A DNA stretch of 64,000 nt from Terriglobus roseus (GTDB lineage: Bacteria > Acidobacteriota > Terriglobia > Terriglobales > Acidobacteriaceae): positions 1 to 64,000 of the forward strand of contig NZ_FNSD01000002.1 in assembly GCF_900105625.1 (NCBI RefSeq). The letters are read 5' to 3'. Shown one piece after another: positions 2,228 through 19,162 of this stretch. A model generated the notes under the pieces. It saw only the letters and a list, made by a program, of their open reading frames with translations, had not been told where the DNA came from and did no database searches. Within the stretch, counting starts at the first letter, position 1; the number at the start of each line of letters is the position of its first letter. The position numbers were made by a program, and so were the translations under genes.

Positions 2228-2260
2228 TCTTAGCGGGTTGAGAGGGCCTTTTTTTGACAC
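2228..2260. promoter_or_regulatory. Conserved intergenic element, copy 1 of 3
   Basis: This element reads CTCTTAGCGGGTTGAGAGGG followed by a T-tract and TTGACAC. Two further copies lie at 9501-9533 (before the initiator gene) and 14496-14531 (before ssb). The common pattern on the + strand is YCTTAG(C/G)G..GTTGARA, about 8 bp, TTTTNTGACAC. Here it lies between the XRE gene and the sigma factor gene. Function is unknown; a shared promoter or operator is the best guess. Confidence 0.5.
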
Positions 2261-2294
2261 CGTTCGTCGTGTTTATTTTCTGAGTAAACGAACA

Positions 2295-2882: not shown

Positions 2883-2885
2883 GCC

Positions 2886-3629: not shown

Positions 3630-4891
3630 CGATGACGAAGACGAACACCCTGCTCCCCGAAGTAAAGCGCGATGTTCTCAAGAATGTCCTGAAGACTCTG
3701 GAAAACAAGTTCTACAAGCCTGAATTGCTTGGCGCTACGTGGCAGGATGCCGTCTCAACTCATCGTGGGTCGATTGAAGATGCCCCGACGACTGATGCCT
3801 TCGAGTCGGAGGTCTCAAATCTACTTCAAACACTCAAAACCTCTCATCTGGGCTTTTTTCACGGGGACGCGCGTAGAGCGTCTAGCCGCGCTGCTCTAAG
3901 CGCGACGTACCTGTTAACGGACACCGGCACGCACGGGCAACGGTGGGTCTTCCAGGATGTCCATGAAGGCGGCGCTGCTGCCACCGCTCGGATCAAACCG
4001 GGAGACATACTTCTGGCCGTGGACGGTCGTGACATCGCCCCACCTGAACACCCGGTCTTTCCGATGGGTAAGACATCGGAACTGGTTGTTGTTGGAAGTG
4101 ACAGTGCAAAGCGAACGGTGAGCGTGACAGTGGCCAGACCAAAGGGTAAGAAGCTCCAATATGTTGAGCCGACCCTCGTTATAGCGAAGACACCAGCCCT
4201 AAACATTGGCTATCTGAAGGTCGCCATGTTTCCAGGCATGGTCGGAGTTGACATCGCAAATGCCATGTCGGCGGCGATCAGAGATTTAGGGGCTATCAAG
4301 GGCTTGATAGTTGATCTACGCGGAAATACTGGCGGGGGAGCTGGCTCGCTCAGGCTCATGAGCCTTCTGACAGATGGCAAGATTCCGGTGGGCTTCGCCG
4401 CTGACAAGAAGTGGGCCGAAAAAGATCTTTCCGGCTTGAAAGGATCATTTCCCCGCTTCGACAGCATCCCCGAGAAATCGCAATTCCTATGGCTTCTCGC
4501 TCTACGCTTCCTGCCTACTCTCATCACCAAGTCACCTGTCGTTCTTGAAACGGAAGGCCTTGGTGCTAAGCCGTATCACGGAAGGGTGGTTCTCCTAGTG
4601 AATCGCCACACTGCCAGTGCTGCTGAGATGGTCACGATATTCGCCAAGGAAAACCACTTGGCGACTATCGTTGGAGAACCAACCGCGGGCCGTCTGCTGT
4701 CTGCCACATCGGCGAAGGTAGGCCACGGCTTCCGTTTGGCTCTCCCAACCGGGGCGTACTACACATGGAACGGGACCGCTCTGGAGGGAAGTCCGATCGA
4801 ACCTGACTACCTTGAAGAGTTTGCCTGGGAAGAACGCCGTGACGGGGTGGATGCGCAGCTTGCTAAGGCAATTGAACTTCTAAACGTCTAG
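3626..4891 (+). CDS. S41-family (C-terminal-processing-like) peptidase with PDZ domain
   Basis: The 421-residue protein has a PDZ-like segment (about residues 100-175, PGDILLAVDGRDIAP) followed by an S41 core. The presumed nucleophile is Ser331 in HTASAAEM. Classic CtpA/Prc enzymes have a catalytic Lys 25 residues after the Ser; here that position is Arg356 (EPTAGRLL). The protein may therefore be inactive, or belong to the tricorn/IRBP-like S41 branch that does not use Lys. No signal peptide is visible, so it should be cytoplasmic. It is coupled by GTGA overlap to the anti-sigma gene and ends 4 bp from the convergent CHAT gene, suggesting a shared signalling or proteolysis role. Confidence 0.82.
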   Translation: MTMTKTNTLLPEVKRDVLKNVLKTLENKFYKPELLGATWQDAVSTHRGSIEDAPTTDAFESEVSNLLQTLKTSHLGFFHGDARRASSRAALSATYLLTDTGTHGQRWVFQDVHEGGAAATARIKPGDILLAVDGRDIAPPEHPVFPMGKTSELVVVGSDSAKRTVSVTVARPKGKKLQYVEPTLVIAKTPALNIGYLKVAMFPGMVGVDIANAMSAAIRDLGAIKGLIVDLRGNTGGGAGSLRLMSLLTDGKIPVGFAADKKWAEKDLSGLKGSFPRFDSIPEKSQFLWLLALRFLPTLITKSPVVLETEGLGAKPYHGRVVLLVNRHTASAAEMVTIFAKENHLATIVGEPTAGRLLSATSAKVGHGFRLALPTGAYYTWNGTALEGSPIEPDYLEEFAWEERRDGVDAQLAKAIELLNV

Positions 4892-4902
4892 AAGTCTAGA
4901 TG
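4879..4902. repeat. Octad repeat array A (3 units)
   Basis: Three consecutive 8-mers TCTAAACG, TCTAGAAG and TCTAGATG cover the junction of the convergent S41 and CHAT genes. The sequence also forms a near-palindrome (AAACGTCTAGA / TCTAGATGTTT). It is the only array of this family outside the 9.5-14.5 kb maintenance region. Confidence 0.55.
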
Positions 4903-7490
4903 TTTCCATGCGCATCACCAACCACCTGAAAGCTTGCCCAGAAGTATGGGGGCAGGCCGCTATCGAGCAATTCCAGTTGAGCTGACCGGAGCGCATCGAC
5001 CTTTGGCGCTCCGGTTGCGAGCTTGCCGTAGAAGGCCGCCATCAGATGTTCCGTCGTGTGATCCTCAAGCTCCCATAGTGTTGAAACCACCGAGTCTGCC
5101 CCAGCTTCTATGAATGCGTTGACTAGGTTTGCCACTCCTACCTCGCCAACAGGGCCGACGCCGGTGTCACAGGCCGACAGAGTCACCAGCTTCACGTTGA
5201 GTTTCAGATCCCGGATCTCCCGGACTTGGAGTAATCCGTCATTCGTATGGTCAGGCTCCGGCGCAAAGGCCAGTGCTGAACGGTCCGGATAGTCCAAGTC
5301 TGCGTACCCATGAAGAGCTAGATGAACCACGTCAGTGCTTGTTGACGAAATTTCCTTGAACTTCGTCTCCGTTGCTGCGGACCCGAGAAGGATCGTCCCT
5401 GGCTGAGGAAGCTCTTGGCCGATGGTTTCGACTTCTTTTTGACTGTCGGGTAGAGGAACCAACTCGCTGCGAGTAGGCCCTAAGAAAGCTCTGACAACGG
5501 GATTTCTTTGCGAGCTCTGTTGAGTCCAGGCGGCAACACCCAGATAGGGCATATTCGTCGCTTCCCTGCCCTTCACTCTTTGTTCAAGCTGCTCATAAAC
5601 GGTGCTCGATGGTGCAACGGCGACTGTGTGCGTCTTGAGTACATATGTACCGCTTTCGTCAACCAAGGCCGAGAACGGTAGGAGATGCAATGAGCCATCC
5701 GGTATGACAACGAGATCGGTCTTAATGCTGTACTCCGGAATCGGCTTGAGCAGCTCGTTGAAGAGTTGCTGCCCCAGGGTGCGATCATCCTTGCGCCCGC
5801 GAATCTCCTTTCGATACCGAACTGCATCGGCTTCTATGACACTCTTTGCTGGCAACAGATACGGTGTGGCTGTGTTGCTAGTGATGACCAGCGCGTGTGA
5901 GGCAGGCTCTGCAAGCACGTATTCGATCACTACTGCCGATGGTTGCAGTGTTCTCTGGAGAGCAGTGAGCGTGACTGGGTGAGTCATGGCCTCCTGTGCG
6001 ATTGCGCTCGGACTGATTGCAAGCTCTGCGCTCCGAATGGAGTTCAGAATTGCTTCTCTTTTGCCAGGGTCGTCTGTTGCAATGAGCGAGATGTTGAGCG
6101 CTGTGAGCTTCTTCTCTTCCGGTGTTGGAATATGAGGGGGCTGTGAAGCGTGATGCTCAAGAGCTTCTGCCTCAACCCGGCCGCGAATGTGCTCCACCAC
6201 TTGTAGGGCTTCGTTGTAGCGATGCCTATTGGAAAGAAAAGTGAAGAACCCCGAGTAAACATCGCTCATTTCACTCAGCAGGTATCGCTGTGTATTCGTG
6301 GTGTCGGCGTGCGTGAGCATAATGTCGACCGACGCGATCGCTTCTCGGTAGAGGCTTTCGGCTTCGGTCGCCTTGCCCATCTTTTCTGTGATCTCTGCTT
6401 TGATCACGAGATTTCGCGGAACCAAGTACAACTCATCCGGGATATGAGTGTTTGCTTCGATGGCGCTGTTGATCGCAGCGAGCGCTTCGGTCAAGTCATC
6501 GGTACGTTCAAGCGCCTGGGCGAGCTTTCCGCCAGCATCCGTGATGTCGCGATAGTTGCTCGTTGCGATCCCTATCGATATGGCCCGTTTGTAATCGGCA
6601 ATTGCAGCTTTCCAGTTTCCCGTTTCTCCAAAGATTGAACCTCGCGAGATGAGCACCTGGGCCTTGTGTTCTTCGTAAGGGGTGTTCTCGATTCTTTCGA
6701 GAGAGGCGTTAGCCAAAGAAAGGGCATCGTGATAGTTCTTTAGCCCTGATAGAGCGTCGATCTTGGCGTAAATTGCGATTGTCGGATACGCAAGCGCTGG
6801 GTTTGAGTTTGCCAACTTGATCGCTTGGTCCAGAAAAGTCAAAGCTTCCTTGTAGTCATGCACCTGGACCAAGCCAGCCCCAAAAACGCTCGCGTATCTC
6901 ACCGTGGCTGCAGTGTCTCGCTCTACTTTGGAGAGTCCCCAAGCTCTGACAACTTGCTTCTTGGCTGTGGTCGTGTCGCCGAGCAAGAAGGCGGCAATTC
7001 CCTGCTCCCCGACCGCTCGCGTAGCAAGCTGTACCTGGCCCGTTTTTAGAGCGAGTTTCTGCACCTCTTGCCAAGTTGAACGCGCCGAGCCAGCGTCATA
7101 GTTGGTCTCCAACATCCCGCGAATTGTCAGAATGCGAAGATGAGTTTCGGGATTTTGAGCTTCAGGCCTTGCCAGGTCATCGGTAAGCTGCAAAATCTTG
7201 CCTTCTACGCTCCCGGTTTCATCTGCAGGAATCTGGCTGACGCGGGCATAGAGTGCAAGATCGAGCCTGTGTTCTCTCTGGAATGCTTCCTCGGCCTTTT
7301 TGTAAACAGGTTTTGCATCGGCCCAGCGATTTCCCCAGGCCAGAGTGTCAGCTCGGTCCAGCAGACCGGAGGCGGACTCCGGCGGCGCGGAACTGTGGTG
7401 TGGGGTGACGATGTATGCGTAGCCGCCTGCAAGTACGGCAATAACAACGCCGGAAACAACAAGTAGGTTTCTGGCCCAGGATCTCAGCAT
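4896..7490 (-). CDS. Membrane-anchored TPR-CHAT (caspase-HetF-like) protein
   Basis: The 864-residue protein has a positively charged N-terminus and one transmembrane helix (about residues 10-27). A long helical TPR region follows (about 40-430), and the C-terminal CHAT domain occupies about residues 610-864. The caspase-type dyad is present: His727 in VVHLALHGYAD and Cys774 in TLSACDTG. By the positive-inside rule the TPR and CHAT parts would lie outside the cytoplasm. CHAT proteins are cysteine-peptidase relatives used in programmed cell death and, as TPR-CHAT (Csx29), in type III-E CRISPR systems. It faces the sigma/anti-sigma/S41 operon tail to tail with 4 bp between, so a link with anti-sigma release is plausible but inferred. 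Confidence 0.88.
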   Translation of the reverse strand: MLRSWARNLLVVSGVVIAVLAGGYAYIVTPHHSSAPPESASGLLDRADTLAWGNRWADAKPVYKKAEEAFQREHRLDLALYARVSQIPADETGSVEGKILQLTDDLARPEAQNPETHLRILTIRGMLETNYDAGSARSTWQEVQKLALKTGQVQLATRAVGEQGIAAFLLGDTTTAKKQVVRAWGLSKVERDTAATVRYASVFGAGLVQVHDYKEALTFLDQAIKLANSNPALAYPTIAIYAKIDALSGLKNYHDALSLANASLERIENTPYEEHKAQVLISRGSIFGETGNWKAAIADYKRAISIGIATSNYRDITDAGGKLAQALERTDDLTEALAAINSAIEANTHIPDELYLVPRNLVIKAEITEKMGKATEAESLYREAIASVDIMLTHADTTNTQRYLLSEMSDVYSGFFTFLSNRHRYNEALQVVEHIRGRVEAEALEHHASQPPHIPTPEEKKLTALNISLIATDDPGKREAILNSIRSAELAISPSAIAQEAMTHPVTLTALQRTLQPSAVVIEYVLAEPASHALVITSNTATPYLLPAKSVIEADAVRYRKEIRGRKDDRTLGQQLFNELLKPIPEYSIKTDLVVIPDGSLHLLPFSALVDESGTYVLKTHTVAVAPSSTVYEQLEQRVKGREATNMPYLGVAAWTQQSSQRNPVVRAFLGPTRSELVPLPDSQKEVETIGQELPQPGTILLGSAATETKFKEISSTSTDVVHLALHGYADLDYPDRSALAFAPEPDHTNDGLLQVREIRDLKLNVKLVTLSACDTGVGPVGEVGVANLVNAFIEAGADSVVSTLWELEDHTTEHLMAAFYGKLATGAPKVDALRSAQLELLDSGLPPYFWASFQVVGDAHGNI

Positions 7491-7740: not shown

Positions 7741-8501
7741 GAACAGATCAAAATGAGATTTATGAAAACCCGGCGCCAGCCGGGGGATTAAGTTTTGATT
7801 TAAGAAGCTATTAAAAAGCTATTAGCGCATTTCCACAGAGTCTATAAACCATTTAGAATCAACTCTCTAAGAGAATAATTCTCGTAGCGCGGTCGGGCCA
7901 AATGCTCCGCTCGTCGGGTCAAATGCTCGGGGTCGTCGGGCAGGATGCTCGCCTCGGTCGGGCCAAATGCGCCACGTCCACAACTGTGGAAAACTTTCGG
8001 TCGGGCCAAATGCTCGTCGAACTCCCTAGGGAATCCTCGAAAAACCCTATAAATACGGGTGTTTCGTAGAATCGTGGTCGGGCCAAATGCTCGCATCTGC
8101 GCTCCAAAGTGCTCGTTTGCAGACCTCTGGTTCTGATCTGGTCGGGCCAAATGCTCTTACCGGCGCTTATCGCTGGTAAGCAGTCGGGTGAAATGCTCCG
8201 GAGTTCGAACAAATTCCCTCGGTCGGGCCAAATGCTCGGGTTCTGGCGCAATGACTTGGTCGGGGCAAATGCTCGCGAATGCCTTGCAACAGGCTTAAAG
8301 CCAGTTTTTCTGTAGATCTTGGGGTGTTCGGTCGGGCCAAATGCTCGCTGAAACGGGAGCACACGCCTCCTGGTCGGGCCAAATGCTCGCCTTAAGTCGG
8401 GCCAAATGCTCTCGCGGTCGGGCAGAATGCTCACGACTGGCCACGATGAAAATGCCGGAAACTGGGCAAAATCACCTATTTCGGGTCGGGCGGAATGCTC
8501 G
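7741..8501. other. Plasmid replication origin (oriV) candidate
   Basis: An A+T-rich stretch (7741-7885) contains two direct AAGCTATTA repeats 11 bp apart (7805-7813, 7816-7824) and a GAGAAT-A-ATTCTC palindrome (7871-7883). A near-match DnaA box ATTTCCACA lies at 7829-7837. An exact DnaA-box match TTTTCCACA lies on the minus strand at 7985-7993, inside the palindrome TCCACAACTGTGGA (7977-7990). The iteron array follows, and the TrfA-type initiator gene abuts the right end. AT-rich DNA, DnaA boxes, iterons and a Rep gene together are the classical form of an iteron-controlled origin. Confidence 0.82.
7891..8501. repeat. Iteron array, about 15 copies of an 18-bp repeat
   Basis: The consensus is GGTCGGGCCAAATGCTCG. 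Copies start at 7891, 7912, 7934, 7956, 7999, 8076, 8140, 8182, 8221, 8258, 8330, 8372, 8395, 8416 and 8484, with a decayed one near 8461. Several start-to-start distances are 21-22 bp or twice that (42-43 bp), keeping copies on one helix face; others, such as 37, 39 and 64-77 bp, do not all fit. Variants differ mainly at positions 9-11. All face one way. The last copy ends 1 bp before the stop codon of the initiator gene, and an extra copy lies inside that gene at 9435-9452. Iterons bind the Rep protein for initiation and copy control. Confidence 0.93.
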
Positions 8502-8502
8502 A

Positions 8503-9480
8503 TTAGCGCTTCCGCGACCTTGAATCAAACAGCGACCCCAGAACGTCCTTAGCCGAACTCATCTCCGGCTTGCGTTCCGTCACGTTTGTTGTTGCACGCA
8601 CTGGGAGAATCGTGCGCTCCTTGTCCCGTTTCTTCATGTCCTCGATCGCCTTGCGGCGAGTGTCCACGCGAGAGAGATGTCGCGCCTGGGCGTCTGTTGG
8701 CGGTCTCGTTATTTTGACGAGGTCATCCTCGATCTCAAAGGTCCACCCGATAGCGTCCTGGATAGTGGTCAGAGCGTTACGCAGTTCAACCCGAAAGTGC
8801 TTCAGCAACTTCGTGGGGCTGCCGGTCTTGTCCTTCAGAAAGGACACGGTAACGGGATATGGGCGGGCGTGGGTAGTGAAATAGCTATGGAGCCATTGCG
8901 CCAGCGGCTTCCCTTTCAACCTCATGCGCTCATCCCACTCGATCACCGACCAGCTCGCGGGCGCAAAGAGCTGTTTTATCTGGGGTGACAGCGAGATCCG
9001 ATAGAGCTTGCTGTCGAGTTCGCGCGTGTAAGAGTCGATTAGGCTGCCGGTGAAGACGTAGCGATGGCCGTTGATGTTCCAAGAGACATCGACCGTTCCT
9101 CTCTTGAGCCGACGGAGCGAGTTGTCCAGGTCGTCATAGTTGAGGTTGTTACGGCTCCTGCCGATGCTGTTTAGAAAGTCGGCTCCGCTAAACATTGCCT
9201 CGTTACCCAAGGGGTGACGACGAGAACGGTGCAACACTTCGAAGAAAACATCAGCGTCGTACTGGTTGAGCTGAGTGCCTGCGTACTTGATGCTCTGGCC
9301 GTCTTGGGCTGCGATCACAACGCCCTCGGGCTCAGTATCCGGGCTCCGTTGTTCGCCCAATGTTTTGCGCTTTGAACTTTGAATCCCGGCGAAAAAGGCT
9401 GAGCGCAACAACACATTTGGGCCGCCACGGACGGCGTCGGGCCAAATGGGAAGTTGCGAAGGTACCTTCTTAACGATCAT
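8503..9480 (-). CDS. trfA: TrfA-type plasmid replication initiator
   Basis: The 325-residue protein matches the TrfA/RepA winged-helix initiator pattern in its middle and C-terminal parts: DADVFFEVLHRSRR, YRISLSPQIKQLF, then LAQWLHSYFTTHARPYPVTV and LLKHFRVELRNAL. Such proteins bind iterons, melt the origin and recruit host helicase. ATG 9480 has a fitting AAGGGA ribosome-binding site 8 nt upstream. Its gene lies to the right of the iterons and is transcribed toward them, so the origin is downstream of rep rather than upstream. An iteron copy covers codons about 10-15, and octads plus the conserved element lie upstream, suggesting autoregulation. The family name is by recognition and not verified. 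Confidence 0.82.
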   Translation of the reverse strand: MIVKKVPSQLPIWPDAVRGGPNVLLRSAFFAGIQSSKRKTLGEQRSPDTEPEGVVIAAQDGQSIKYAGTQLNQYDADVFFEVLHRSRRHPLGNEAMFSGADFLNSIGRSRNNLNYDDLDNSLRRLKRGTVDVSWNINGHRYVFTGSLIDSYTRELDSKLYRISLSPQIKQLFAPASWSVIEWDERMRLKGKPLAQWLHSYFTTHARPYPVTVSFLKDKTGSPTKLLKHFRVELRNALTTIQDAIGWTFEIEDDLVKITRPPTDAQARHLSRVDTRRKAIEDMKKRDKERTILPVRATTNVTERKPEMSSAKDVLGSLFDSRSRKR

Positions 9481-9500
9481 CTATGTCATCCCTTCTAAAC

Positions 9501-9533
9501 CCTTAGCGCGTTGAAAGTCAGGATTTTTGACAC
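9501..9533. promoter_or_regulatory. Conserved intergenic element, copy 2 of 3
   Basis: CCTTAGCGCGTTGAAAGTCA followed by GGATTTTTGACAC matches the copies at 2228-2260 and 14496-14531. It lies 20 bp upstream of the initiator start, so read on the minus strand (GTGTCAAAAA ... TCAACGCGCTAAGG) it is in promoter position for trfA. Confidence 0.5.
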
Positions 9534-9549
9534 CCATGGCGCTAATTTT

Positions 9550-9597
9550 TTTAGAGCCTCAGACATGTAAACGTCTGAACGGCTAGATGTTTAGTTC
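9550..9597. repeat. Octad repeat array B (6 units)
   Basis: Six abutting 8-mers run TTTAGAGC, CTCAGACA, TGTAAACG, TCTGAACG, GCTAGATG and TTTAGTTC. They fit the family pattern NYTRRANG (strongest bases T at 3, A at 6). The array sits between the initiator gene and the ribbon-helix-helix gene, covering the latter's stop codon, in the initiator promoter region. Confidence 0.7.
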
Positions 9598-9872
9598 TCT
9601 TTGAGCCAGTTGTTCATCAATTCCTCAACCAATTCGGACATATCGCGCTCGTCGTCGTTGATCTTTAAACGGTGTTCGCAGTTCGCGAGGGTCTTTTTAC
9701 GGAGGTAAAGAGTTGTGGTCCGAAAGTCAGGATCTTTGCTCTTGGCAAGCTTGCCAGCACTCTTCGATGGCGCTTCGATACCACGCTCGGCTACCGGTTC
9801 AGAAAGGGGTTTCCGACGGGGTGCGAGAATCGCGTCGAATTGGCTACCGGACGTTTTAGTGGCGGTTGGCAT
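9591..9872 (-). CDS. Ribbon-helix-helix partition/regulator protein (ParG/omega-like)
   Basis: The 93-residue protein has a basic, flexible N-terminal half. Its C-terminal ribbon-helix-helix fold is seen as FRTTTLYLRKKTLANCEHRL followed by an SELVEELMNNWL helix (about residues 50-90). It overlaps the end of parA by 17 bp, the standard order for type Ib partition operons in which a small RHH protein binds the centromere and stimulates ParA. RHH partition proteins of the omega family bind tandem short repeats, and tandem 8-bp repeats flank this operon on both sides. I infer that this protein is the octad-binding factor. Confidence 0.72.
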   Translation of the reverse strand: MPTATKTSGSQFDAILAPRRKPLSEPVAERGIEAPSKSAGKLAKSKDPDFRTTTLYLRKKTLANCEHRLKINDDERDMSELVEELMNNWLKEN

Positions 9873-10467
9873 ATTTCAAGGCTTCCTTTCCAGTTGTGAG
9901 GTAGGCTTCCCACGCGCGTTTGGCGCGTGGATCATCGACTTGCGAAACGAGCAATCCACCTGCGGCGGCACGCTCGAATGCTTTCAGCCTGGGAATGCCG
10001 ACGGAGAAAACGGGAACGTTTGCGCGCTCTAGCGCGGCCCGAAGGTTGTTGCCTTCGGGCTCCGGCGGCGGCGGCATCTTCGTGATGAGGACACGGTAGT
10101 TCTCTGCTCCGAGTGTCTGAAGTGCAGAGATAGTCAGCCGTAGACCGTCACTGTCCATTGTGGCCGGGACTGCGGGGATGATAAGCAGGTCGCATCCTTC
10201 AGCCAAAGCCTTGAGGTCCGCATCGCTTGGACGCTGGCCTGTGTCGATCACACTATGTTCGAACTGCTTGGCTAGTTTCATAGCCGAGCGCACATCAGCA
10301 ACTCGATACGGAAGTCCTGGGCCACGTTCTGACCATTCCGTCGCGTTGCGGGTAGCGTCTCCATCAAGTAGAAGCGTCGGCGCGAGTGTTTGGAGGTAGG
10401 CGGCAATATGAATTGCCGTCGTGGTCTTGCCTACTCCCCCCTTGAAGCTGGCGATGGCTACATGCAT
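9856..10467 (-). CDS. parA: ParA-family partition ATPase
   Basis: The protein begins MHVAIASFKGGVGKTTTAIH, with the deviant Walker A motif KGGVGKTT of ParA/MinD ATPases, followed by LLDGDATRNATEW (Walker A') and SVIDTGQRP (Walker B). I prefer the ATG at 10467, which has AGGGA about 10 nt upstream; an in-frame ATG at 10485 would add six residues without such a site. At 203 residues it is the short type Ib form without an N-terminal HTH, so DNA binding and autoregulation would fall to the RHH partner. It positions plasmid copies before cell division. Octad array C covers its promoter. Confidence 0.92.
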   Translation of the reverse strand: MHVAIASFKGGVGKTTTAIHIAAYLQTLAPTLLLDGDATRNATEWSERGPGLPYRVADVRSAMKLAKQFEHSVIDTGQRPSDADLKALAEGCDLLIIPAVPATMDSDGLRLTISALQTLGAENYRVLITKMPPPPEPEGNNLRAALERANVPVFSVGIPRLKAFERAAAGGLLVSQVDDPRAKRAWEAYLTTGKEALKYANRH

Positions 10468-10483
10468 GACGTTTCGTTCCCTC

Positions 10484-10547
10484 ATCAGAAGTGTAAATAG
10501 GAAAAGCTCTAAACACCTAGAACTCTGAATGTCTAAAAGCTCAGATG
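10484..10547. repeat. Octad repeat array C (8 units) upstream of parA
   Basis: Eight in-register 8-mers are seen: ATCAGAAG, TGTAAATA, a decayed GGAAAAGC, then TCTAAACA, CCTAGAAC, TCTGAATG, TCTAAAAG and CTCAGATG. The array starts 16 bp above the parA start codon and fills the promoter region, a position expected for an autoregulatory operator or centromere of a type Ib partition system. Confidence 0.7.
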
Positions 10548-10591
10548 TACCCCAAGAGATACGAGATTTGGGGCAAATAAGGCGATTTCAA

Positions 10592-10631
10592 GCTGAACGC
10601 TTAGAAGCCTAGACGTTTAGGCTGCTAGAAG
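10592..10631. repeat. Octad repeat array D (5 units) at the ardC 3' end
   Basis: The units are GCTGAACG, CTTAGAAG, CCTAGACG, TTTAGGCT and GCTAGAAG. The array spans the stop codon of the antirestriction gene and its last codons, and continues the set upstream of parA. Confidence 0.65.
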
Positions 10632-11591
10632 CATTCGATCAGTCGATGGGAAGCCCGTCTCGTCGGTCTCCCCCTCGCTTCCCTGCTCAACCGCAGCACC
10701 TTCACCTTTGATCAAGTCCACCGCGCGTTGCGCAGAGGCCGCTGCCTGAACAATCAGCCTGTTGTCCTGTTTCAGAGCGCTGATCCAGTGCTGGATGTAC
10801 GCGGTGGTGTTTTCTTCGGAATGTTCCGTGGCGATTCCAGCGATAGCACTGAGAAAGGCTGCACCTGTCTCTGCAATCAGCTCCTCTTTGCTGTAAAGCT
10901 CATCGCCAAAATTCACTCCGAAAGCCCTAGCGAGGCGACTCTCGTGGCCGGTGCTATGAATCAATTCGTGAAAGAGGGTCTTGTAGTAGTGGGCCGTATC
11001 GATGAAACGAAAACGAGCGGGCAGATGAACGGAATCAGTGCTTGGGCGATAGTAAGCTCGGCTTTCTGATTCAATCTCTGTCCGAATGTTGGGCCGTCCG
11101 GCCCAATTGTTCACGATAGCCTCGCAGGCGCTGTCCGTCTCAACCATGTTCGGCAGAGGCTCTTCAATGGTCGGCACGTCGAGGCCGTCGCATTGTTCTA
11201 CGTTGAAGACGTTGTAATAGGTGAGCATGAAGGGGGGGCGCTTGGTTTCGGTCTCATCCTCGCCCTGCTGATCCGCTTTGGAGCGCTGTGCAAGTTGCTT
11301 GTAAAAAACGATCCGCTCGCTGCGCTCACCCTTGCGAACTGAACCGCCCAACTCCTGGGCCTGTTTGAAAGTGAGCCAGAACGGAGAGCTAAACCCCGTG
11401 CCCCAAAGGAGCATAATATTCACGCCTCGGTATGGCTTGCCGGTGCAGAAGTTTCGCGGAAAGACACCGCCTGCATAACGAGGGGTCTTCCAAGGCTTCT
11501 CCCATGGGACGACGCCTTTTTCGAGACTTGCGATAATCCGGTCTGTGACGATCTGGTAGATGTTGAGTTTGTCTCCGTTAGGCTTGCTCAT
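10617..11591 (-). CDS. ardC: ArdC-family antirestriction protein (ssDNA-binding, zincin-like)
   Basis: The 324-residue protein starts with the ArdC ssDNA-binding domain (IYQIVTDRIIASLEKGVVPW...PWKTPR, with FRGVN-like KPYRGVNIMLL). The metallopeptidase-like C-terminal part carries HELIHSTGHESRL (HExxH, about residues 218-230) and a downstream EELIAE glutamate. ArdC proteins travel with conjugative plasmids and protect incoming DNA from host restriction. The leader carries AGTCAGGAGAGA before the ATG, nearly identical to those of the ParB-like and ssb genes. Octads and the duplicated structured element lie immediately upstream. Confidence 0.9.
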   Translation of the reverse strand: MSKPNGDKLNIYQIVTDRIIASLEKGVVPWEKPWKTPRYAGGVFPRNFCTGKPYRGVNIMLLWGTGFSSPFWLTFKQAQELGGSVRKGERSERIVFYKQLAQRSKADQQGEDETETKRPPFMLTYYNVFNVEQCDGLDVPTIEEPLPNMVETDSACEAIVNNWAGRPNIRTEIESESRAYYRPSTDSVHLPARFRFIDTAHYYKTLFHELIHSTGHESRLARAFGVNFGDELYSKEELIAETGAAFLSAIAGIATEHSEENTTAYIQHWISALKQDNRLIVQAAASAQRAVDLIKGEGAAVEQGSEGETDETGFPSTDRMLLAA

Positions 11592-11649
11592 TGGGTCTCT
11601 CCTGACTCTGGTTGATAGGTTGAGGTCGTCGGTGTTCCCGCACCGGGCT

Positions 11650-11729
11650 TCTAGATATTTAGACGTTTAGATGTCTAAAAGGTTGCGCGTTTAGAGTGTT
11701 ATTTTTCTAGATGTTTAGCAGGTTGAGTT
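11650..11729. repeat. Octad repeat array E (10 units) upstream of ardC
   Basis: All units share one register: TCTAGATA, TTTAGACG, TTTAGATG, TCTAAAAG, GTTGCGCG (decayed), TTTAGAGT, GTTATTTT (decayed), TCTAGATG, TTTAGCAG and GTTGAGTT. Units 1-6 are almost identical to array G before ssb, including the decayed GTTGCGCG, so the two arrays are duplicates. It lies about 60 bp upstream of ardC. Confidence 0.75.
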
Positions 11730-11740
11730 TGGGCGTCGTG

Positions 11741-11923
11741 ACGAACGGCATGAAACTTCATGCCGGAATGATGAGAGAAAGGCACTCGGGGCGGCAAAGT
11801 GCAATGGGGAGGGGAATCACCCATCCTCAGATTTCTCAGGACGAAGCGAAGCGTAGGTCTGCACAAGCGCAGCGCGGAAGACTGCGGGAAACCCCTTGCG
11901 CTGCGCCAGGGCGCAGCCCTCAG
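11741..11923. ncRNA. Duplicated structured element, copy 1 (function unknown)
   Basis: This ~180-bp non-coding segment is a diverged copy of 14976-15176. It starts with a perfect hairpin CGGCATGAA-AC-TTCATGCCG (11746-11765). Strongly shared blocks follow: GGGGAGGGGAATCACCCATC, GGTCTGCACAAGCG, GCGCGGAAGACTGCGGG and CCCCTTGCGCTGCGCCAGGG. A second stem GCTGCGCC-AG-GGCGCAGC closes it. The first hairpin has paired base changes in the other copy (AA/TT versus TA/TA), which argues for selection on structure. It lies upstream of ardC. It could be an RNA, a single-stranded-DNA promoter or a protein site; no open frame is conserved. Confidence 0.5.
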
Positions 11924-11926
11924 GGA

Positions 11927-12122
11927 ATTGAATGTTTAGAGCCTTGAAGCTCTAGCCATTTGAGCATCTAGAACTTCAGTCGCGGTCTTGAGCCTCAAAG
12001 CCTTCGGCATTCAAGCTACATAAAACGATGGACGCGTAAACTTCTGCATCTTTGAACATTCAGAGCCTTAGAGTGTTAGATGGCTAGAGTCTTAGCTGTT
12101 GAGATGGCTAGAGTTCTGATCT
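11927..12122. repeat. Octad repeat array F (about 22 units), largest array
   Basis: Three in-register runs are present. Run 1 (11927-11982) is ATTGAATG, TTTAGAGC, CTTGAAGC, TCTAGCCA, TTTGAGCA, TCTAGAAC, TTCAGTCG. Run 2 (11986-12017) is weaker. Run 3 (12035-12122) has eleven units such as TTTGAACA, CTTAGAGT, GTTAGATG, GCTAGAGT, CTTAGCTG. The array separates the structured element from the small gene at 12108-12371 and reaches its stop codon. Size and position between parA and the ParB-like gene make it the best centromere candidate. Confidence 0.65.
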
Positions 12123-12371
12123 TCGGGACTGATCGCGGGGACGAGCTTGGGTGAGTCGTGGCCGCGACCACGGAGAGGAACGACGTAGAAACTCCTTCAG
12201 AGCATCGTCCAACTTCTGACGTGCCTGGAGTAGGTCATAAAGATTCCAGCTAGTAGAGCAGCCGCCTTTGATTCCGCTGCGGCCGTCCTTCTCAGGGTTG
12301 TAGCGTGGATGCCGGTCGCACTTTGCTGTGACACGTTCGCGAAGCTGAACTTTGTGCGTGAATTTGAGCAT
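12108..12371 (-). CDS. Small conserved-looking plasmid protein, unknown function
   Basis: The 87-residue protein contains AKCDRHPRYNPEKDGRSGIKGGCSTSW followed by a helical NLYDLLQARQKLDDALKEFL. Two Cys and a His suggest a small metal-binding or structural fold. ATG 12371 has a GGAG ribosome-binding site 9 nt upstream, and the gene follows the ParB-like gene by 53 bp on the same strand. I do not recognise a family. The very basic C-terminal tail (SRPRLTQARPRDQSRR) is probably disordered and nucleic-acid-contacting. Confidence 0.6.
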   Translation of the reverse strand: MLKFTHKVQLRERVTAKCDRHPRYNPEKDGRSGIKGGCSTSWNLYDLLQARQKLDDALKEFLRRSSPWSRPRLTQARPRDQSRRSEL

Positions 12372-12424: not shown

Positions 12425-13975
12425 CTATGCCTTGCGATTCGTCGTTGTTTTCAAAGACTTTCGTGGAGTGGTCTTCTTGCCTTCGCGAGTAGGGCGAGCG
12501 GTTTTAGGAAACAACTTCTCGGCTTCCAACAGATAGTCAGGCTCCCCGGGACGGGGAAGTCCCAGCCAGCTTCCAAGGGCCAGTTCAGCCAGAAAACCGA
12601 ATAAGCTGGAGGAAGGGCACGAAGAAACTGCATCGGCGCATACATCATCACTACCTTTATCTCCGTCTGGTGAGCCGTCTTCGAATCGCAAGGCAATTCG
12701 TTCCATAGCGTCATCAAGATCACCGCGCACAAGAGCCGTGAGGATGAGCCGCGTTTGAGCTTCAGAACCTACAGAAGGGAACCGAAGGATGAGCGACCTG
12801 AATCGTTTTTCCCTTTGCTCCTTTTGCTTTTGTAGCTTTTCGCGTTCAAGCTGGGCCTGTTGCATCCGCTCTTCGAAGTCCGAATCCTCCTCGCTATCGC
12901 CTGTGTCGGCGCGGCGGCGCGGATGATGAACCGAACAATTCTTGTCTGTGCAGACGGTGTATTGCTGTCCGAGGCCTGAACCATAGGTGACGATTGCAAC
13001 TGCTGCATTTGGGCAGGTATGCGGTGGAACGTCACCCTCCTCAGCCTCTTCGCCAGCGATAACGGTGTACTCGAAAGGGGCAAGTTCCCCAGTCGGGCGG
13101 TCTTTCTCGGGTCGCCATCCGGTGCTGATCTGCACTAATGCTGCATTTTGTGACTTCGCTCGCTCAATATGGGCCGCGATCTTGGAACGGAAACAGATGG
13201 CGTTCGTGCAGTTGTCATCCTTTACGTCCGCGAAGAGGGCGGTGTTGAAACCGGTCCTGCTTGGGCAGGTTAGGCAGCATCCTGCTTCGGGGAGCAGGTC
13301 AGCGTCGTCGGCAGGGAAGGGAGCTGACGATAGGCCGAGAAACAGGTTCTCCTGAATCCATGCCGAAAGGTGTTTTGCCGGGAGCAAGTGGCGTTCGTCA
13401 TCACGGTAGTCTTTGCGGAACGCATTAGGGAAGGCTTCGGATTGTTGGTCAGAGGACAGGCGGGCGAGAAGGTTCGCATGGCTAGCCGTAATCTCGTCCT
13501 GCTGAAATGCCTCGGCAATCTCGGGAATGAGTGATAGCAACGTGAGCCGCGCATAGATATGGCTCTGGCTCTTGCTGCACTTCGACGCGAGAGCGGCTAC
13601 ATCGTATCCGGGCACCTCTAGGAGCCGCTTATACCCGCTGGCCTCTTCGTAGGGATGAACGTCTTCACGCTGGCTGTTCTCGATGATCTGAACTTCAAGG
13701 GTCTGGGCGTCGCTCAGGTCGATGATTCTGGCCGGGACATCAGCCAGGTCTGCGATCTGCGCTGCACGATAACGCCTAGCACCGGCGACGATTTCGAAGC
13801 GTTCTGCTTTCGGGCGAACGGTGATGGGCTGAATGAGGCCGTGGGTGCGGATGCTTCCTGCAAGCTCCTGCAGCTTGGCCGGATCGAACGTGCGGCGAGG
13901 ATTTGTGGCTGATTCGAAGAGGCTAGCAATCGGAAGGGTCTGGTAGTCTGTCTGTGAAATCGTCGCGGTGTTCAT
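12425..13975 (-). CDS. ParB/RepB/Spo0J-family protein with Cys cluster
   Basis: The 516-residue protein has a ParB N-terminal domain: NPRRTF, the CTP-binding-type motif as GARRYRAA, and ENSQREDVHPYEEA at about residues 100-112. A helix-turn-helix follows (VAALASKCSKSQSHIYARLTLL). A cysteine-rich segment then appears (CCLTCPSRTGFN...DNCTNAICF, about residues 230-262), and a highly charged coiled region lies near residues 360-395. It is larger than classical ParB and lies apart from parA, so it may be a ParB-like plasmid regulator or nuclease rather than the ParA partner. It shares the AGTCAGGAGA leader with ardC and ssb. Confidence 0.83.
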   Translation of the reverse strand: MNTATISQTDYQTLPIASLFESATNPRRTFDPAKLQELAGSIRTHGLIQPITVRPKAERFEIVAGARRYRAAQIADLADVPARIIDLSDAQTLEVQIIENSQREDVHPYEEASGYKRLLEVPGYDVAALASKCSKSQSHIYARLTLLSLIPEIAEAFQQDEITASHANLLARLSSDQQSEAFPNAFRKDYRDDERHLLPAKHLSAWIQENLFLGLSSAPFPADDADLLPEAGCCLTCPSRTGFNTALFADVKDDNCTNAICFRSKIAAHIERAKSQNAALVQISTGWRPEKDRPTGELAPFEYTVIAGEEAEEGDVPPHTCPNAAVAIVTYGSGLGQQYTVCTDKNCSVHHPRRRADTGDSEEDSDFEERMQQAQLEREKLQKQKEQREKRFRSLILRFPSVGSEAQTRLILTALVRGDLDDAMERIALRFEDGSPDGDKGSDDVCADAVSSCPSSSLFGFLAELALGSWLGLPRPGEPDYLLEAEKLFPKTARPTREGKKTTPRKSLKTTTNRKA

Positions 13976-14056: not shown

Positions 14057-14398
14057 TTATTCGGTATCCTTCGCGGTGACCAGCTCAATCGCAGAAGCAA
14101 GAATCTCGGCGCTGTACATGGTCACCTTCTCGCCACCAACTTCCTTCTCATAGTTGTTGTTCCTCAGCTTTCCTTCGACGAAAATCCGGTCGCCCTTCTT
14201 GAGCTTCTTTGCGTAAGAGCGAAGGTTTCCAAAGACCACAATGGTGTGCCAGTCGGTACGGGTCTGCCAGTTCTTTTCGTCGTCTGTCCACTTCTCAGAG
14301 GTCGCGATGCTGAAGGTGACTGGAGCGTTCTCGCTTGCCTGCTTCGGATCGGCTCCGAGGTGTCCAATCTGAAGGGTCTTGTTGAGGTCGTTAATCAT
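14057..14398 (-). CDS. ssb: Single-stranded DNA-binding protein
   Basis: The 113-residue protein is a single OB fold of the SSB family: MINDLNKTLQIGHLGADPK, TFSIATSEKW, DWHTIVVFGNLRSYAKKLKKGDRIFVEGKL. It lacks the long acidic-tipped C-terminal tail of chromosomal SSBs, ending VTAKDTE. Plasmid SSBs coat the transferred strand during conjugation and support replication. ATG 14398 follows AGTCAGGAGA. Octad array G and conserved element copy 3 lie directly upstream. Confidence 0.92.
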   Translation of the reverse strand: MINDLNKTLQIGHLGADPKQASENAPVTFSIATSEKWTDDEKNWQTRTDWHTIVVFGNLRSYAKKLKKGDRIFVEGKLRNNNYEKEVGGEKVTMYSAEILASAIELVTAKDTE

Positions 14399-14425
14399 GG
14401 TTTTTCTCCTGACTTGTTTTGTACT

Positions 14426-14473
14426 TCTAGATGTTTAGACGTTTAGATGTCTAGAAAGTTGCGCGTTTAGAGT
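14426..14473. repeat. Octad repeat array G (6 units) upstream of ssb
   Basis: The units are TCTAGATG, TTTAGACG, TTTAGATG, TCTAGAAA, GTTGCGCG (decayed) and TTTAGAGT, nearly identical to units 1-6 of array E. The array lies 28 bp upstream of the ssb start codon. Confidence 0.75.
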
Positions 14474-14975: not shown

Positions 14976-15176
14976 CGTGGAACACGGCATGTACCTACAT
15001 GCCGAACGCCTACGTGGCGAACGGCGGGGCGGCAAAGCGCAAGGGGAGGGGAATCACCCATCCTTGCAGCGGAAGCGAAGCTGAAGCGGAAAGGACGAGC
15101 GTAGCGAAGGTCTGCACAAGCGAAGCGCGGAAGACTGCGGGATACCCCTTGCGCTGCGCCAGGGCAGAGCCCTCAG
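14976..15176. ncRNA. Duplicated structured element, copy 2 (function unknown)
   Basis: This ~200-bp counterpart of 11741-11923 begins with CGGCATGTA-CC-TACATGCCG (14985-15004), which preserves the stem but changes both strands relative to copy 1. Shared blocks GGGGAGGGGAATCACCCATC, GGTCTGCACAAGCG and GCGCGGAAGACTGCGGG follow. The terminal stem seen in copy 1 is imperfect here (GCTGCGCC / GGCAGAGC). It ends 160 bp before the transposase stop codon; 15177-15337 shows no gene I can support. Confidence 0.5.
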
Positions 15177-15289: not shown

Positions 15290-16690
15290 TGCAGAGACTT
15301 TCGGTAACGAGAGCGCAAGTTTTGGGGCGAGATTCTGTTAGTCAGCCGCTAGCCGTGAGACCAAGCTGGCCGCGCCAAGAACTTTTGTGATGCGCTTGAG
15401 GTTATAGACCATCGTTGCGATGGCAATCTCACTTCGTGCTCCACTTAGCCCACGGACCAACAGGCGCGGATGCCCAAAAATCCGGTACTTGATCGTCGCG
15501 AATGGATGCTCCACCGTCTGGCGTCTGAGTCGCATGGACGCCGGAGTCATGCGTTGCTCCATACGATTCAAGGCGTCCTCATAGAGATGGCGTGCCAAAC
15601 CTCGTCGCGGAGCAAGGGTACATTGGGATTTCAATGAACACGGTCCGCAGTCTGCACTTGATGCTTTGTACATCGTGTAACGGTCTTTAAAGTTTGTATG
15701 CTTCCGTAGCAAACGCTTTTGTCCGGGACAGACATAGCTGTCTGACGCCGCGTCGTATTTGAAGTCTGTTCGGCCATAGAGAGTTCCATCGCCTTGATTG
15801 TTCACCGTGCGCATGACAGGGACAAAGGGCGTGATGCCCGCCTCCTCGCATTGAGCAATCTGTTCTCCGTTGGAGTACCCAGCATCGGCGACGACTTGGA
15901 GCGTGTCCACTTCAAGCGCGGCCTTTGCAGCATCAGCCATGGGTTTCAAGCTTCGAATATCAGAGGCATCAACGATCACTGAGTGAGCGACGATCAGAGC
16001 ATGCTCCGCATCCACTGCGGTTTGAACGTTATATGCGGGAAGCGCCATCTGCCGAACCAACATAAAATTGGCCTCAGGCTCGGGATGCTGTTTCAACTTC
16101 TCAAGGGCCTTCTGAACTGCAGAATCGTCGATCTCGGTCCGTTGTTCGTAATCTGCCTTTTGCATCTTGTCGAGATAACGCAGCAGTTCAACCCGCTCAC
16201 GAGTGGCATCAACGCTCGCGACAGCTCTGAACTTGGAACCGTCAATCGCAATCCATTCGCCACGAATCAATCCGCACTGTCGCGCGAAGTGAACGAGCTG
16301 CGCTCCGGCCGCCGTGATCGCCTCCCGGTGAAGACGGCGAAACTCTGAAATGCTCTTGTGGTCTGGGTACAAGCGACCAATCAGCCACATCAGTTCTACG
16401 TTTCTGCGACATTCCGCTTCGAGCCGACGGGAAGAACGGACTTGATTGAGATATCCATACAGATACAACTTCAGGAAATCCCGTGGGTCGTACCCTGGGC
16501 GGCCAGTGTCCGCCGCCTCCGACCTCTCGAATCCGAGCTGGGACATGGCTAGCCGACCGACAAAAGCATCGATGACACGGCACATATGATCGGGCGGCAC
16601 GAGGTCATCCAGCAAAACAGGAAAGAGCGTGCCCTGATGTCGTCCTTCTCCTTCTATATATGCCATCCGCGCGACCTCCTTACACGTGTT
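15290..16690 (-). mobile_element. IS1182-type insertion sequence (ends approximate)
   Basis: A complete transposase gene with little flanking DNA lies between the maintenance block and the arsenic cluster. I could not find convincing terminal inverted repeats or a target duplication by eye, so both ends are estimates. On the right it abuts the acr3 stop codon at 16689-16691, and the transposase ribosome-binding site lies only a few bases away. Confidence 0.6.
15338..16666 (-). CDS. IS1182-family transposase
   Basis: The 442-residue DDE transposase shows the N-terminal transposase domain (LLDDLVPPDHMCRVIDAFV, YDPRDFLKLYLYGYLN), then the catalytic Asp in IAIDGSKFRAV, the second Asp in VVADAGYSNGEQI and the Glu in VEHPFATIKYR. 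A Cys pattern (CGPCSLKSQC) typical of this group precedes the last motif. The length and all three acidic residues indicate an intact enzyme. AAGGAGGT lies 7 nt upstream of the ATG. Insertion next to acr3 suggests it brought or bounded the arsenic cluster. Confidence 0.9.
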   Translation of the reverse strand: MAYIEGEGRHQGTLFPVLLDDLVPPDHMCRVIDAFVGRLAMSQLGFERSEAADTGRPGYDPRDFLKLYLYGYLNQVRSSRRLEAECRRNVELMWLIGRLYPDHKSISEFRRLHREAITAAGAQLVHFARQCGLIRGEWIAIDGSKFRAVASVDATRERVELLRYLDKMQKADYEQRTEIDDSAVQKALEKLKQHPEPEANFMLVRQMALPAYNVQTAVDAEHALIVAHSVIVDASDIRSLKPMADAAKAALEVDTLQVVADAGYSNGEQIAQCEEAGITPFVPVMRTVNNQGDGTLYGRTDFKYDAASDSYVCPGQKRLLRKHTNFKDRYTMYKASSADCGPCSLKSQCTLAPRRGLARHLYEDALNRMEQRMTPASMRLRRQTVEHPFATIKYRIFGHPRLLVRGLSGARSEIAIATMVYNLKRITKVLGAASLVSRLAAD

Positions 16691-17765
16691 ATTCCCAAGT
16701 CAAGCGATCCCGGAGCCAGTAGGCCACGTTCACCAATCCGATGAGCGCAGGGACTTCGATCAGTGGCCCCACCACGCCGACAAATGCTTCACCGGAATTC
16801 AGTCCGAACACTGCGACTGCCACCGCGATCGCGAGTTCGAAGTTGTTCCCTGCGGCAGTGAAGGAAAGCGTCGCGGACTGTGCGTAGTTTGCTCCAAGGC
16901 GGCGCCCCATCAGGAAGCTGACCAGGAACATCACCAAGAAATAGATCACCAACGGAATCGCAATCTTAATAACGTCGAAGGGCAGCCTAACAATCAGATC
17001 ACCCTTGAGAGAAAACATGACCAGGATCGTGAAGAGCAACGCAGCGAGTGTAAACGGGCTGATCAGCGGAACAAAGCGAGTGGTGTACCATTCGTCCCCT
17101 TTGGCTCGAAGCAGTAAGTAACGAGCAACAAAACCGGCTGCGAAGGGCACGCCCAGATAAAGCCCGACGCTTTGGGCGATCTGCGCAATGCCGACATGCA
17201 CGACGCTGCCTTGAAGACCAAACCATCGCGGTGCGATCGTCAGAAACACCCAAGCGTAGACACTATAGAAGAGCACCTGGAAGACGCTGTTGATGGCAAC
17301 GAGACCAGCAACGTAGTCGGTGTCACCCTCAGCAAGTTCGTTCCATACCAGCACCATGGCAATACAGCGAGCGATACCGATGAGGATCAGCCCGCGCATA
17401 TACGCGGGTTCGTTCCGAAGGAACAGTAAGGCAAGCACGAACATCAGAACCGGCCCAATCAGCCAGTTCTGCAGGAGCGACAAGCCCAGCACGCGACGAT
17501 TCCGAAAGACCTCACCCAACTTGTCGTAACGCACCTTCGCCAGTGGAGGGAACATCATCACAATGAGTCCAATGGCGATGGGAACGTTCGTCATTCCGAA
17601 TTGGAAGTGGTAGATGAAACCAGCGAAACCGGGAACGAAGTGCCCGATGCTGATTCCTACTGCCATTGCAAGGAAGATCCAGAGCGTCAGGTAACGATCT
17701 AGGAAAGACAGGCGCTTCCTTTGAACAGGTCTACAGCTGCGTCCTTGCGTTGGAGTCGGCGTCAT
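16689..17765 (-). CDS. acr3: ACR3-family arsenite efflux permease, copy 1
   Basis: The 358-residue protein has about ten transmembrane segments and ACR3 hallmarks, including [19 protein letters not shown] with the conserved Cys, [17 protein letters not shown] and [15 protein letters not shown]. It exports As(III) using the proton motive force. Compared with copy 2 (49711-50832), the C-terminus is about 15 residues shorter and differs (RDRLTWE), right where the insertion sequence abuts, so the natural end may have been replaced. The start overlaps arsR by 4 bp, forming an arsR-acr3 operon. Confidence 0.93.
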
Positions 17766-18172
17766 GAGCGCACATCACAGCAGACTTCTGACACAGCCAT
17801 TGGCAGCGGCGCACCTTCAAGGGAATATCGAGCTGGGGAATAACAAGCCTTGCTAAGACGGCTCCGATCGCTCTGCATGGCTTTATCGTTCTTCAACGAG
17901 TGGAGTGTCTGACGGAGAATATGAGCAGCGCCGATGTGCGGGGGAACCTCGATGCGATAGTGCATCCATTTGCCTTCACGCCGCGCCGAAACAATACCAG
18001 CGCTCCGCAGGTACGCGAGGTGGCGAGATATCTTCGGCTGAGGCGCGTCCAGAATCTCCACGAAGTAGCAAACGCAGACTTCCTGCTCTCCCATAAGGTT
18101 CAGAAGTCGAAGGCGCGTCCTGTCGCCTAAGGCTTGGAAGAAGCGCGGCAAATCAAACTGTGTGCGGGGCAT
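17762..18172 (-). CDS. arsR: ArsR-family arsenite-responsive repressor, copy 1
   Basis: The 136-residue winged-helix protein (LFQ-type core [21 protein letters not shown]) has the As(III)-sensing cysteines in [11 protein letters not shown]. The DNA-recognition helix region is [18 protein letters not shown], and extra C-terminal cysteines (SEVCCDVRS) are present. It represses its operon until As(III) binds. It is divergent from arsM across a 74-bp promoter region. Confidence 0.92.
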
Positions 18173-18188
18173 GTATTACAGATATGTT

Positions 18189-18217
18189 TTGACGCATGCG
18201 TATGCAAGAGATACATT
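18189..18217 (+). promoter_or_regulatory. arsM1 promoter with ArsR operator candidate
   Basis: TTGACG (18189-18194), a 17-bp spacer and TACATT (18212-18217) face arsM. The palindrome ACGCATGCGT overlaps the -35 region and is a candidate ArsR site for both divergent genes. The second cluster has the same TTGACG-ATGC layout at 49252-49280. Confidence 0.55.
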
Positions 18218-18246
18218 TGCCTAAACGATTATGTTTGAGGTGAAGA

Positions 18247-19146: not shown

Positions 19147-19162
19147 TCGCAACAGAGGAGAG

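Follow-up and report, generated by a model that had tools for sequence, protein, structure and literature searches.

Seven arrays of abutting 8-bp repeats (octads) run through the plasmid maintenance region of Terriglobus roseus contig NZ_FNSD01000002.1. They are very probably the binding sites of a 93-residue ribbon-helix-helix (RHH)-like protein encoded beside a 209-residue ParA ATPase, because such arrays recur beside this gene pair and track residues of the protein's predicted β-strand. The stretch analysed here (the window) comprises 64,000 of the 66,414 bases of this plasmid-sized contig, the genome's other contig being 4.74 Mb. We observed directly that the arrays exist, that they recur within a plasmid family and that they co-vary with the strand residues. 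With considerable confidence, we interpret the system as a type Ib partition module in which RHH dimers on the octads would act both as the centromere and as a repressor of nearby genes.

Octad arrays in the window

An initial annotation of this DNA had described at least seven octad arrays in strict register. We called arrays using a hidden Markov model (HMM) with a cyclic 8-bp unit, seeded by the consensus from that annotation, and found seven in the places described (A to G; Table 1), slightly larger overall and with about 70 degenerate units in total. The unit counts were the same for C (8), D (5) and E (10); those of B and G rose from 6 each to 13 and 7, and F, previously about 22 units in three runs, resolved into runs of 7 and 18 units, making it the longest array of the window with 25. 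Two more runs in the model output, at 3434-3449 (2 units) and 59290-59313 (3 units), are short and doubtful. The consensus, TYTRRANG, has a palindrome, TYTARA, at its core, the remaining two bases being loose; shifted by four bases, the same arrays read ARANGTYT.

Scored against shuffled sequence, a check that the initial annotation had proposed, the model gave a log-odds of 141.0 for the window compared with a mean of 17.1 and a maximum of 30.2 in 20 dinucleotide shuffles. The number of units above 0.5 posterior (72 in the window; mean 37.7 and maximum 54 in the shuffles) separated the two less well, because expectation-maximization fits noise too. A run on the reversed sequence (log-odds 142.9, 68 units) is not a valid control, since a period-8 array remains period 8 when reversed. 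The strict register was borne out: for the 55 units above 5.5 bits between 4.8 and 14.6 kb, 20 of which lie entirely within coding sequence, 52 of the 56 pairs at most 40 bp apart were spaced by 8, 16, 24, 32 or 40 bp. Exact 8-bp neighbours numbered 18 in this interval; the window's other 54.2 kb had none, and 100 kb of chromosome had 4. All five genomic occurrences of the strict pattern TNTAGANGTNTAGANG fell on the 66,414-bp plasmid contig, with none on the 4.74-Mb chromosome. Period-8 autocorrelation, also proposed initially, was evident within six array regions (z of 2.4 to 5.2 at lag 8) but was not decisive over 9.4-14.6 kb taken whole, where the lag-8 signal is diluted (z 2.7) and outscored by lags 9, 12, 16 and 24. 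Taken together, these data confirmed that 8-bp octad arrays exist in the window.

Period 8 recurs beside parA in several phyla

We examined 39 parA loci without a motif, scoring periods 5-13 over at most 700 bp 5′ of parA and 700 bp 3′ of its partner and recording the best period. These loci were the window, 13 of 18 places from one search (omitting its own, two identical to fetched plasmids, a partial gene and one contig's second copy) and 25 plasmid loci hand-picked for taxonomic spread (24 from 227 records, one from another search), 7 of which had been scanned earlier with the window's matrix. A further 19 loci, fetched later and held out, comprised 14 viral contigs and 5 genome places, chosen as the best 10 of 80, 4 of 5 (the fifth a repeat) and 5 of 8 places (three being known repeats). 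The 39 and 19 loci are not all independent, as they contain the near relatives L123/L124, L016/L025, L222/L223, L227/L229 and L230/L231.

Period 8 was the best period 5′ of parA in 31 of the 39 loci and 3′ of the partner in 16; among the held-out loci the corresponding fractions were 13/19 and 8/19, and 13/19 had a period-8 z-score (z8) above 4 on either side. The search of related plasmids suggested by the initial annotation found arrays beside parA-RHH pairs. Controls rarely gave period 8 as best: 7 of 78 generic parA loci (80 kept from a scan of genome contigs, two being too short), of which a few (L041-L043) may be true family members, 1 of 70 pieces of the chromosome of the window's own genome, and 3 of 50 distal pieces of the same plasmids, where one match, on a Thermus plasmid, resembles by eye a further true array. 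Period 7 was never best upstream in the 39 loci, its z-score lying mostly between -2 and 2. Heptads and other periods were rejected for the arrays, period 8 being dominant both in the window and in the family loci.

A z8 above 4 on one side or both was seen in members of the Acidobacteriota, Alphaproteobacteria, Cyanobacteriota, Deinococcota, Planctomycetota and Abditibacteriota; the family includes plasmids pSYSX and pSYSM of the laboratory strain Synechocystis PCC 6803 (upstream z8 4.8 and 5.7). All of these groups but the Planctomycetota have loci with period 8 best upstream; in the single planctomycete locus it was best downstream. Neither the single Rubrobacter (Actinomycetota) locus nor the single Acinetobacter locus had a period-8 signal. 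The octads are quasi-palindromic, the palindrome z-score being positive in 37 of 38 well-fitted loci (p ≤ 0.1 in 22). The 8-bp period thus belongs to this ParA/RHH family, recurring beside the gene pair in several phyla.

Octads co-vary with strand residues of the RHH-like protein

For 56 of the 58 loci (L034 and L040 being left out) we fitted an octad matrix to the flanks and searched for the partner with an RHH-like profile, which matched a protein following parA in 49/56 loci, and in 28/35 once its 21 seed loci were set aside. Alignment rows were obtained for 44 of the 49; L021, L126, L132, L147 and L222 have none, a technical loss. Excluding loci with a fit of 30 or less or an information content of 3.4 bits or less, which dropped the Synechocystis loci, and removing by hand three near-duplicates (L124, L223 and L231) and two doubtful RHH rows (L135 and L148) left 28 loci. 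MetJ, the methionine repressor, is not known to have a ParA partner, and its Lys23 and Thr25 contact bases. Aligned by eye, Lys23, Thr25 and Ser27 of MetJ correspond to Thr, Thr and Tyr in the window protein, and we took these three as the outward strand triplet.

With distance over the rest of the RHH domain regressed out, octad distance correlated with outward-triplet distance (partial r 0.389, permutation p 0.0003, n=28), compared with r 0.053 for the interleaved inward residues. The outward triplet ranked first of 43 triplets spaced i/i+2/i+4 and exceeded 99.73% of 18,424 column triples. The correlation persisted without the Lys group described below (r 0.404, p 0.0003, n=21; inward 0.123), among loci less than 60% identical (r 0.328, p 0.0037, n=20; inward 0.097) and at a stricter fit threshold (r 0.386, p 0.0005, n=21). 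Comparison of groups, for which the matrices were symmetrised and set in a common register, showed that in the 7 loci with Lys at the Thr25 position the second octad base is C and the seventh is G (81%), whereas in the Thr/Ser groups these are T and A (50-71%). Similarly, 3 loci with Lys, Arg or Thr at the Lys23 position have G or A at octad position 6 (48/41%), compared with A (49%; G 19%) in the 7 loci with Gln.

In one viral-contig relative, L222, words around GATGTACATCTG recur at period 8 both 5′ of parA and 3′ of the partner gene (z8 4.2 and 6.7); the strand of its partner, which has no alignment row, looks different by eye and possibly represents another branch of the code.

ParA and its partner

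The window ParA has a KGGVGKTT Walker A motif near its N terminus, and its gene overlaps that of the RHH-like protein by 17 bp. Among PDB entries it matches 3cwq (E 1.1e-59) and, over nearly its full length, ParF 4dzz (E 2.6e-6). The closest pair among 72,556 plasmid records is on pACIX904 of Granulicella tundricola (ParA 77.3% and RHH 48.5% identical). The 93-residue protein has a predicted β-strand in FRTTTLYLR followed by two C-terminal helices, and its N-terminal tail carries a near-invariant S-x-F motif. Across the family a linker, often GRPxGKRSDP, leads into the predicted strand, which is followed by two helices whose end reads ELLxxWL. A family profile gave ParG 1p94 as its top PDB match (E 0.027, suggestive only), and among 13 relatives Pfam RHH_1 was matched in one (best E 3e-5) and Pfam ParG in two (best E 0.0028); phmmer with the 93-residue protein found nothing in PDB at E up to 10. 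The initial annotation had called this protein an RHH protein. A low-confidence structural model did not confirm the fold (see below). That this RHH-like protein partners the 209-residue ParA is very probable.

Placement of the arrays

On the minus strand the maintenance region reads ssb, the ParB-like gene, an 87-residue open reading frame (ORF), ardC, parA, the RHH gene and rep (Table 1). The arrays lie before rep, parA, ardC and ssb, as annotated initially: B, situated where the RHH gene ends and rep has yet to begin, is 14-117 bp before rep; C is directly 5′ of parA; E is 59-138 bp 5′ of ardC; and G is 20-75 bp 5′ of ssb. D overlaps the 3′ end of ardC. F, which is mostly non-coding and covers the final 23 bp of the 87-residue ORF, is the candidate main centromere. 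A has no promoter position, lying where an S41-protease gene meets a convergent 864-residue ORF. Arrays E and G have a 59-bp block in common (88% identical), so a single operator module seems to have been copied to ardC and ssb, rather than gained twice independently.

Table 1. Positions of the octad arrays and maintenance genes in the window
Feature	Position	Strand	Description	Basis
Octad array A	4863-4910		6 units: 4 firm, 2 doubtful	cyclic 8-bp HMM
Octad array B	9494-9597		13 units, upstream ones weak by eye	cyclic 8-bp HMM
Octad array C	10484-10547		8 units	cyclic 8-bp HMM
Octad array D	10592-10631		5 units	cyclic 8-bp HMM
Octad array E	11650-11729		10 units	cyclic 8-bp HMM
Octad array F	11927-11982 + 11987-12130		7+18 units, 4-bp slip, 3 doubtful	cyclic 8-bp HMM
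Octad array G	14418-14473		7 units	cyclic 8-bp HMM
rep	8503..9480	-	TrfA/RepA-like replication initiator; array B upstream	TrfA E 5.1e-11
RHH-like protein gene	9591..9872	-	93 residues; putative ParB/ParG role	ORF, alignment with relatives
parA	9856..10485	-	209-residue ATPase	CbiA E 2.3e-13
ardC	10617..11591	-	ardC-like antirestriction gene; array E upstream	ArdcN E 1.5e-38, MPTase-PolyVal E 8.8e-37
87-residue ORF	12108-12371	-		no Pfam match
ParB-like gene	12425-13975	-	516-residue helix-turn-helix protein	ParB_N E 1.2e-26; TIGR00180 parB_part E 1.2e-43
ssb	14057..14398	-	array G upstream	Pfam SSB E 7.8e-22

Comparison with known systems

In keeping with type Ib systems, the window ParA is short, has a Walker A motif and has no N-terminal helix-turn-helix match, and arrays C and D are present at parA, their presence being all that was compared. 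A type Ia arrangement, in which a helix-turn-helix ParB is encoded with ParA, does not apply, as the parA partner has no helix-turn-helix match and the ParB-like gene lies apart. The delta-omega system of pSM19035 is described as using RHH dimers, one per repeat, on abutting repeats that overlap promoters and serve as centromere and regulator (PMC9499535). In this respect it resembles the window, but its repeats are 7-bp and non-palindromic whereas those of the window have period 8 and are quasi-palindromic. There, at least four contiguous repeats are reported to be required before ParA and ParB form a stable complex and the ParA ATPase is activated efficiently (PMC9499535), a minimum exceeded by C and D together (13 units) and by F (25).

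The nearer precedents are ParG-type systems and the met boxes of MetJ. In TP228, parH is reported to consist of degenerate tetramer boxes with AT-rich spacers, which ParG coats while repressing parFG (PMC7308502). Plasmid pP62BP1 carries seventeen identical adjacent 8-bp repeats, AATACTCA, beside parA-parG, an arrangement called apparently unique by its authors (PMC3346939). Both systems share with the window a small ParA and a repeat array at parA, and their downstream RHH protein has a putative counterpart in the 93-residue protein. They differ in that the window ParA is far closer to 3cwq than to TP228 ParF, that the pP62BP1 octad has another sequence, and that the window has its many degenerate units also before ardC, ssb and rep. 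The operators of MetJ are given as tandem 8-bp met boxes with consensus AGACGTCT (PMC4239095), which the ARANGTYT phase of the window matches. In addition, the co-varying RHH residues align by eye with Lys23 and Thr25 of MetJ. No homology was detected, as the window protein has no Pfam match at E up to 1 and MetJ is absent from the RHH family's 4 PDB profile matches (E up to 10) and 21 Pfam families. The initial annotation had compared the octads with heptads, which are not the best comparison, and an 8-bp pitch is not new for RHH proteins: with the pP62BP1 repeats (PMC3346939) and the MetJ boxes (PMC4239095) as precedents, abutting octads beside parA-RHH were already known.

A model for octad function and its alternatives

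From the arrays, their recurrence and the co-variation, we infer binding, centromere activity and repression. In the model, RHH dimers would sit side by side, one per palindromic octad, in the geometry of MetJ on met boxes, the predicted strand residues Thr, Thr and Tyr reading the octad. Once coated, the arrays would act as the centromere, chiefly F and, at parA, the 13 units of C and D, and ParA would move it through the N-terminal tail of the RHH protein. Bound 5′ of parA, rep, ardC and ssb, the RHH protein would also act as their repressor, coupling maintenance functions to how much of the protein is present. The centromere and autoregulatory roles fit type Ib precedents. At rep, ardC and ssb it is the position of the arrays that suggests regulation, and the octad centromere may also switch these nearby genes.

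Several observations weigh against this model. Period 8 was not best upstream in 8 of the 39 loci (L017, L025, L027, L031, L034, L127, L135 and L136) or in 6 of the 19 held-out loci (L139, L141, L142, L144, L230 and L231), though L034, L127 and L142 showed it downstream. The window itself was modest in the 700-bp test, with z8 3.5 upstream and 2.3 downstream, where period 9 was best. In the full co-variation set, columns W66 and L46 score as high as or higher than single strand columns; they look like clade markers, and thus a clade effect contributes. The only two low-identity pairs with identical triplets are not especially close in their octads (mean distance 0.45, compared with 0.39 for one difference), and the assignment of inward and outward residues comes from alignment to the MetJ and Arc structures. 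The 93-residue protein has no Pfam match (E up to 1) or NCBIfam match. Its AlphaFold monomer model, built with seven sequences, has a mean predicted local distance difference test score of 61.7 and a predicted template modelling score of 0.24; this low-confidence model places helices at 59-71 and 78-92, and Foldseek gave no useful PDB match with it (best E 4.9). Finally, a scan for consensus promoters gave no site at an array; its single site, compared with 2.1 expected, lies elsewhere. The proposal that the RHH protein binds the octads gains from the recurrence beside parA-RHH and from the strand co-variation.

Of the alternatives, the one that fares best, although we consider it unlikely, is that the octads serve solely as operators for a maintenance regulon, with RHH an autorepressor and the centromere elsewhere, for example with the 516-residue ParB-like protein. 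Four genes do have arrays upstream, and a ParB-like helix-turn-helix protein is indeed encoded (Table 1). However, octads in three relatives lie almost only beside parA-RHH, the 25-unit array F adjoins no start codon, and the sites of an RHH-type ParB are described as overlapping promoters elsewhere too (PMC9499535). Still less probable is recognition of the octads by some other protein, be it ParB/Noc-like, an XRE-type regulator or a host factor: the plasmid does encode an HTH_31/XRE-type protein (1903-2181) as well as the ParB-like protein, but the arrays accompany the parA-RHH pair across phyla and track the RHH strand residues. That the repeats arose by slippage or are selfish tandem elements, and play no part in binding, as the duplicated block common to E and G might hint, is scarcely credible given that degenerate units are nonetheless in phase and quasi-palindromic, that their place beside parA is kept in distant plasmids and that they co-vary with the protein.

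Scope in relatives and implications

We scanned three relatives for arrays: pPfer1 (50 of 55.3 kb), pANACY.05 (the whole 20.6 kb) and pIAD-21 (50 of 102.9 kb). All have arrays of at least 14 bits at the par flanks; elsewhere, pANACY.05 has one 6-unit array and pIAD-21 a single 2-unit match, and a shuffled pPfer1 control gave one match as well. On pACIX904, scanned over 24.3 of 115.5 kb, the window's matrix matched up to about 1.3 kb from the parA-RHH pair on either side and, weakly, at one place some 9 kb away. Only the window's plasmid was seen to carry arrays before ardC and ssb, the ardC and ssb genes of the relatives not having been searched for. The initial interpretation was thus borne out in part: the centromere role put forward there fits type Ib precedents, but its description of the RHH protein as a plasmid-wide regulator is too strong, because the window's arrays are limited to 9.4-14.5 kb and one short array at 4.9 kb and because the three relatives carry arrays almost only at the par flanks.

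What appears to be new is how broadly the octads occur, their presence at ardC and ssb, and the apparent recognition code. Neither such a code nor an octad rule spanning a family was found in the literature covered, which consisted of titles and the openings of abstracts with few subscription journals. Type Ib centromeres, as described in the papers cited here, have unlike repeat layouts, and our data suggest one rule for a broad family: an 8-bp pitch with co-varying strand residues. If this is right, the centromeres and incompatibility groups of many unstudied plasmids would be predictable from sequence, and an RHH recognition code would be directly testable by residue swaps. It is about an even call whether all parts of a wider proposal hold jointly, namely a widespread but little-described octad-centromere class in six phyla, an RHH residue-to-base code, incompatibility drift and a regulon of copied modules. 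In that code Lys at the Thr25 position would specify G and Thr/Ser would specify A, while Lys/Arg/Thr rather than Gln at the Lys23 position would shift the balance between G and A. Incompatibility types would then drift as the three strand residues change with the octads, and some plasmids would copy octad modules to maintenance genes, building a regulon.

Other features of the plasmid

The 516-residue ParB-like protein (12425-13975) is a second partition-like protein with no ParA of its own alongside; it resembles Noc/ParB and PRTRC ParB models below their cut-offs and exceeds the cut-off of the general parB_part model. An iteron-like sequence, GTCGGGCCAAATGCTC, occurs sixteen times on the plus strand at 7892-8500 and 9436 with no more than 4 mismatches, 15 copies lying past the 3′ end of the TrfA-like rep and one inside the start of its coding sequence, and a further match with 4 mismatches is found at 54344 on the minus strand. 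A 79-nt element occurs twice (11845-11923 and 15098-15176, 92% identical), with a likeness that by eye reaches further upstream; neither copy, nor any other part of the window, has an Rfam match at gathering score. The interval 2238-7490 contains a sigma-factor-like ORF and a possible anti-sigma protein, both recognized by eye, and an S41/PDZ protease found by Pfam search, which a TPR plus CHAT-like ORF (by eye) faces across octad array A. Further along, judging from their translations, 16689-19564 holds what we take to be an arsenic-resistance set whose genes encode a regulator (ArsR-like), a transporter (ACR3-like), a methyltransferase (ArsM-like) and a reductase (ArsC-like).

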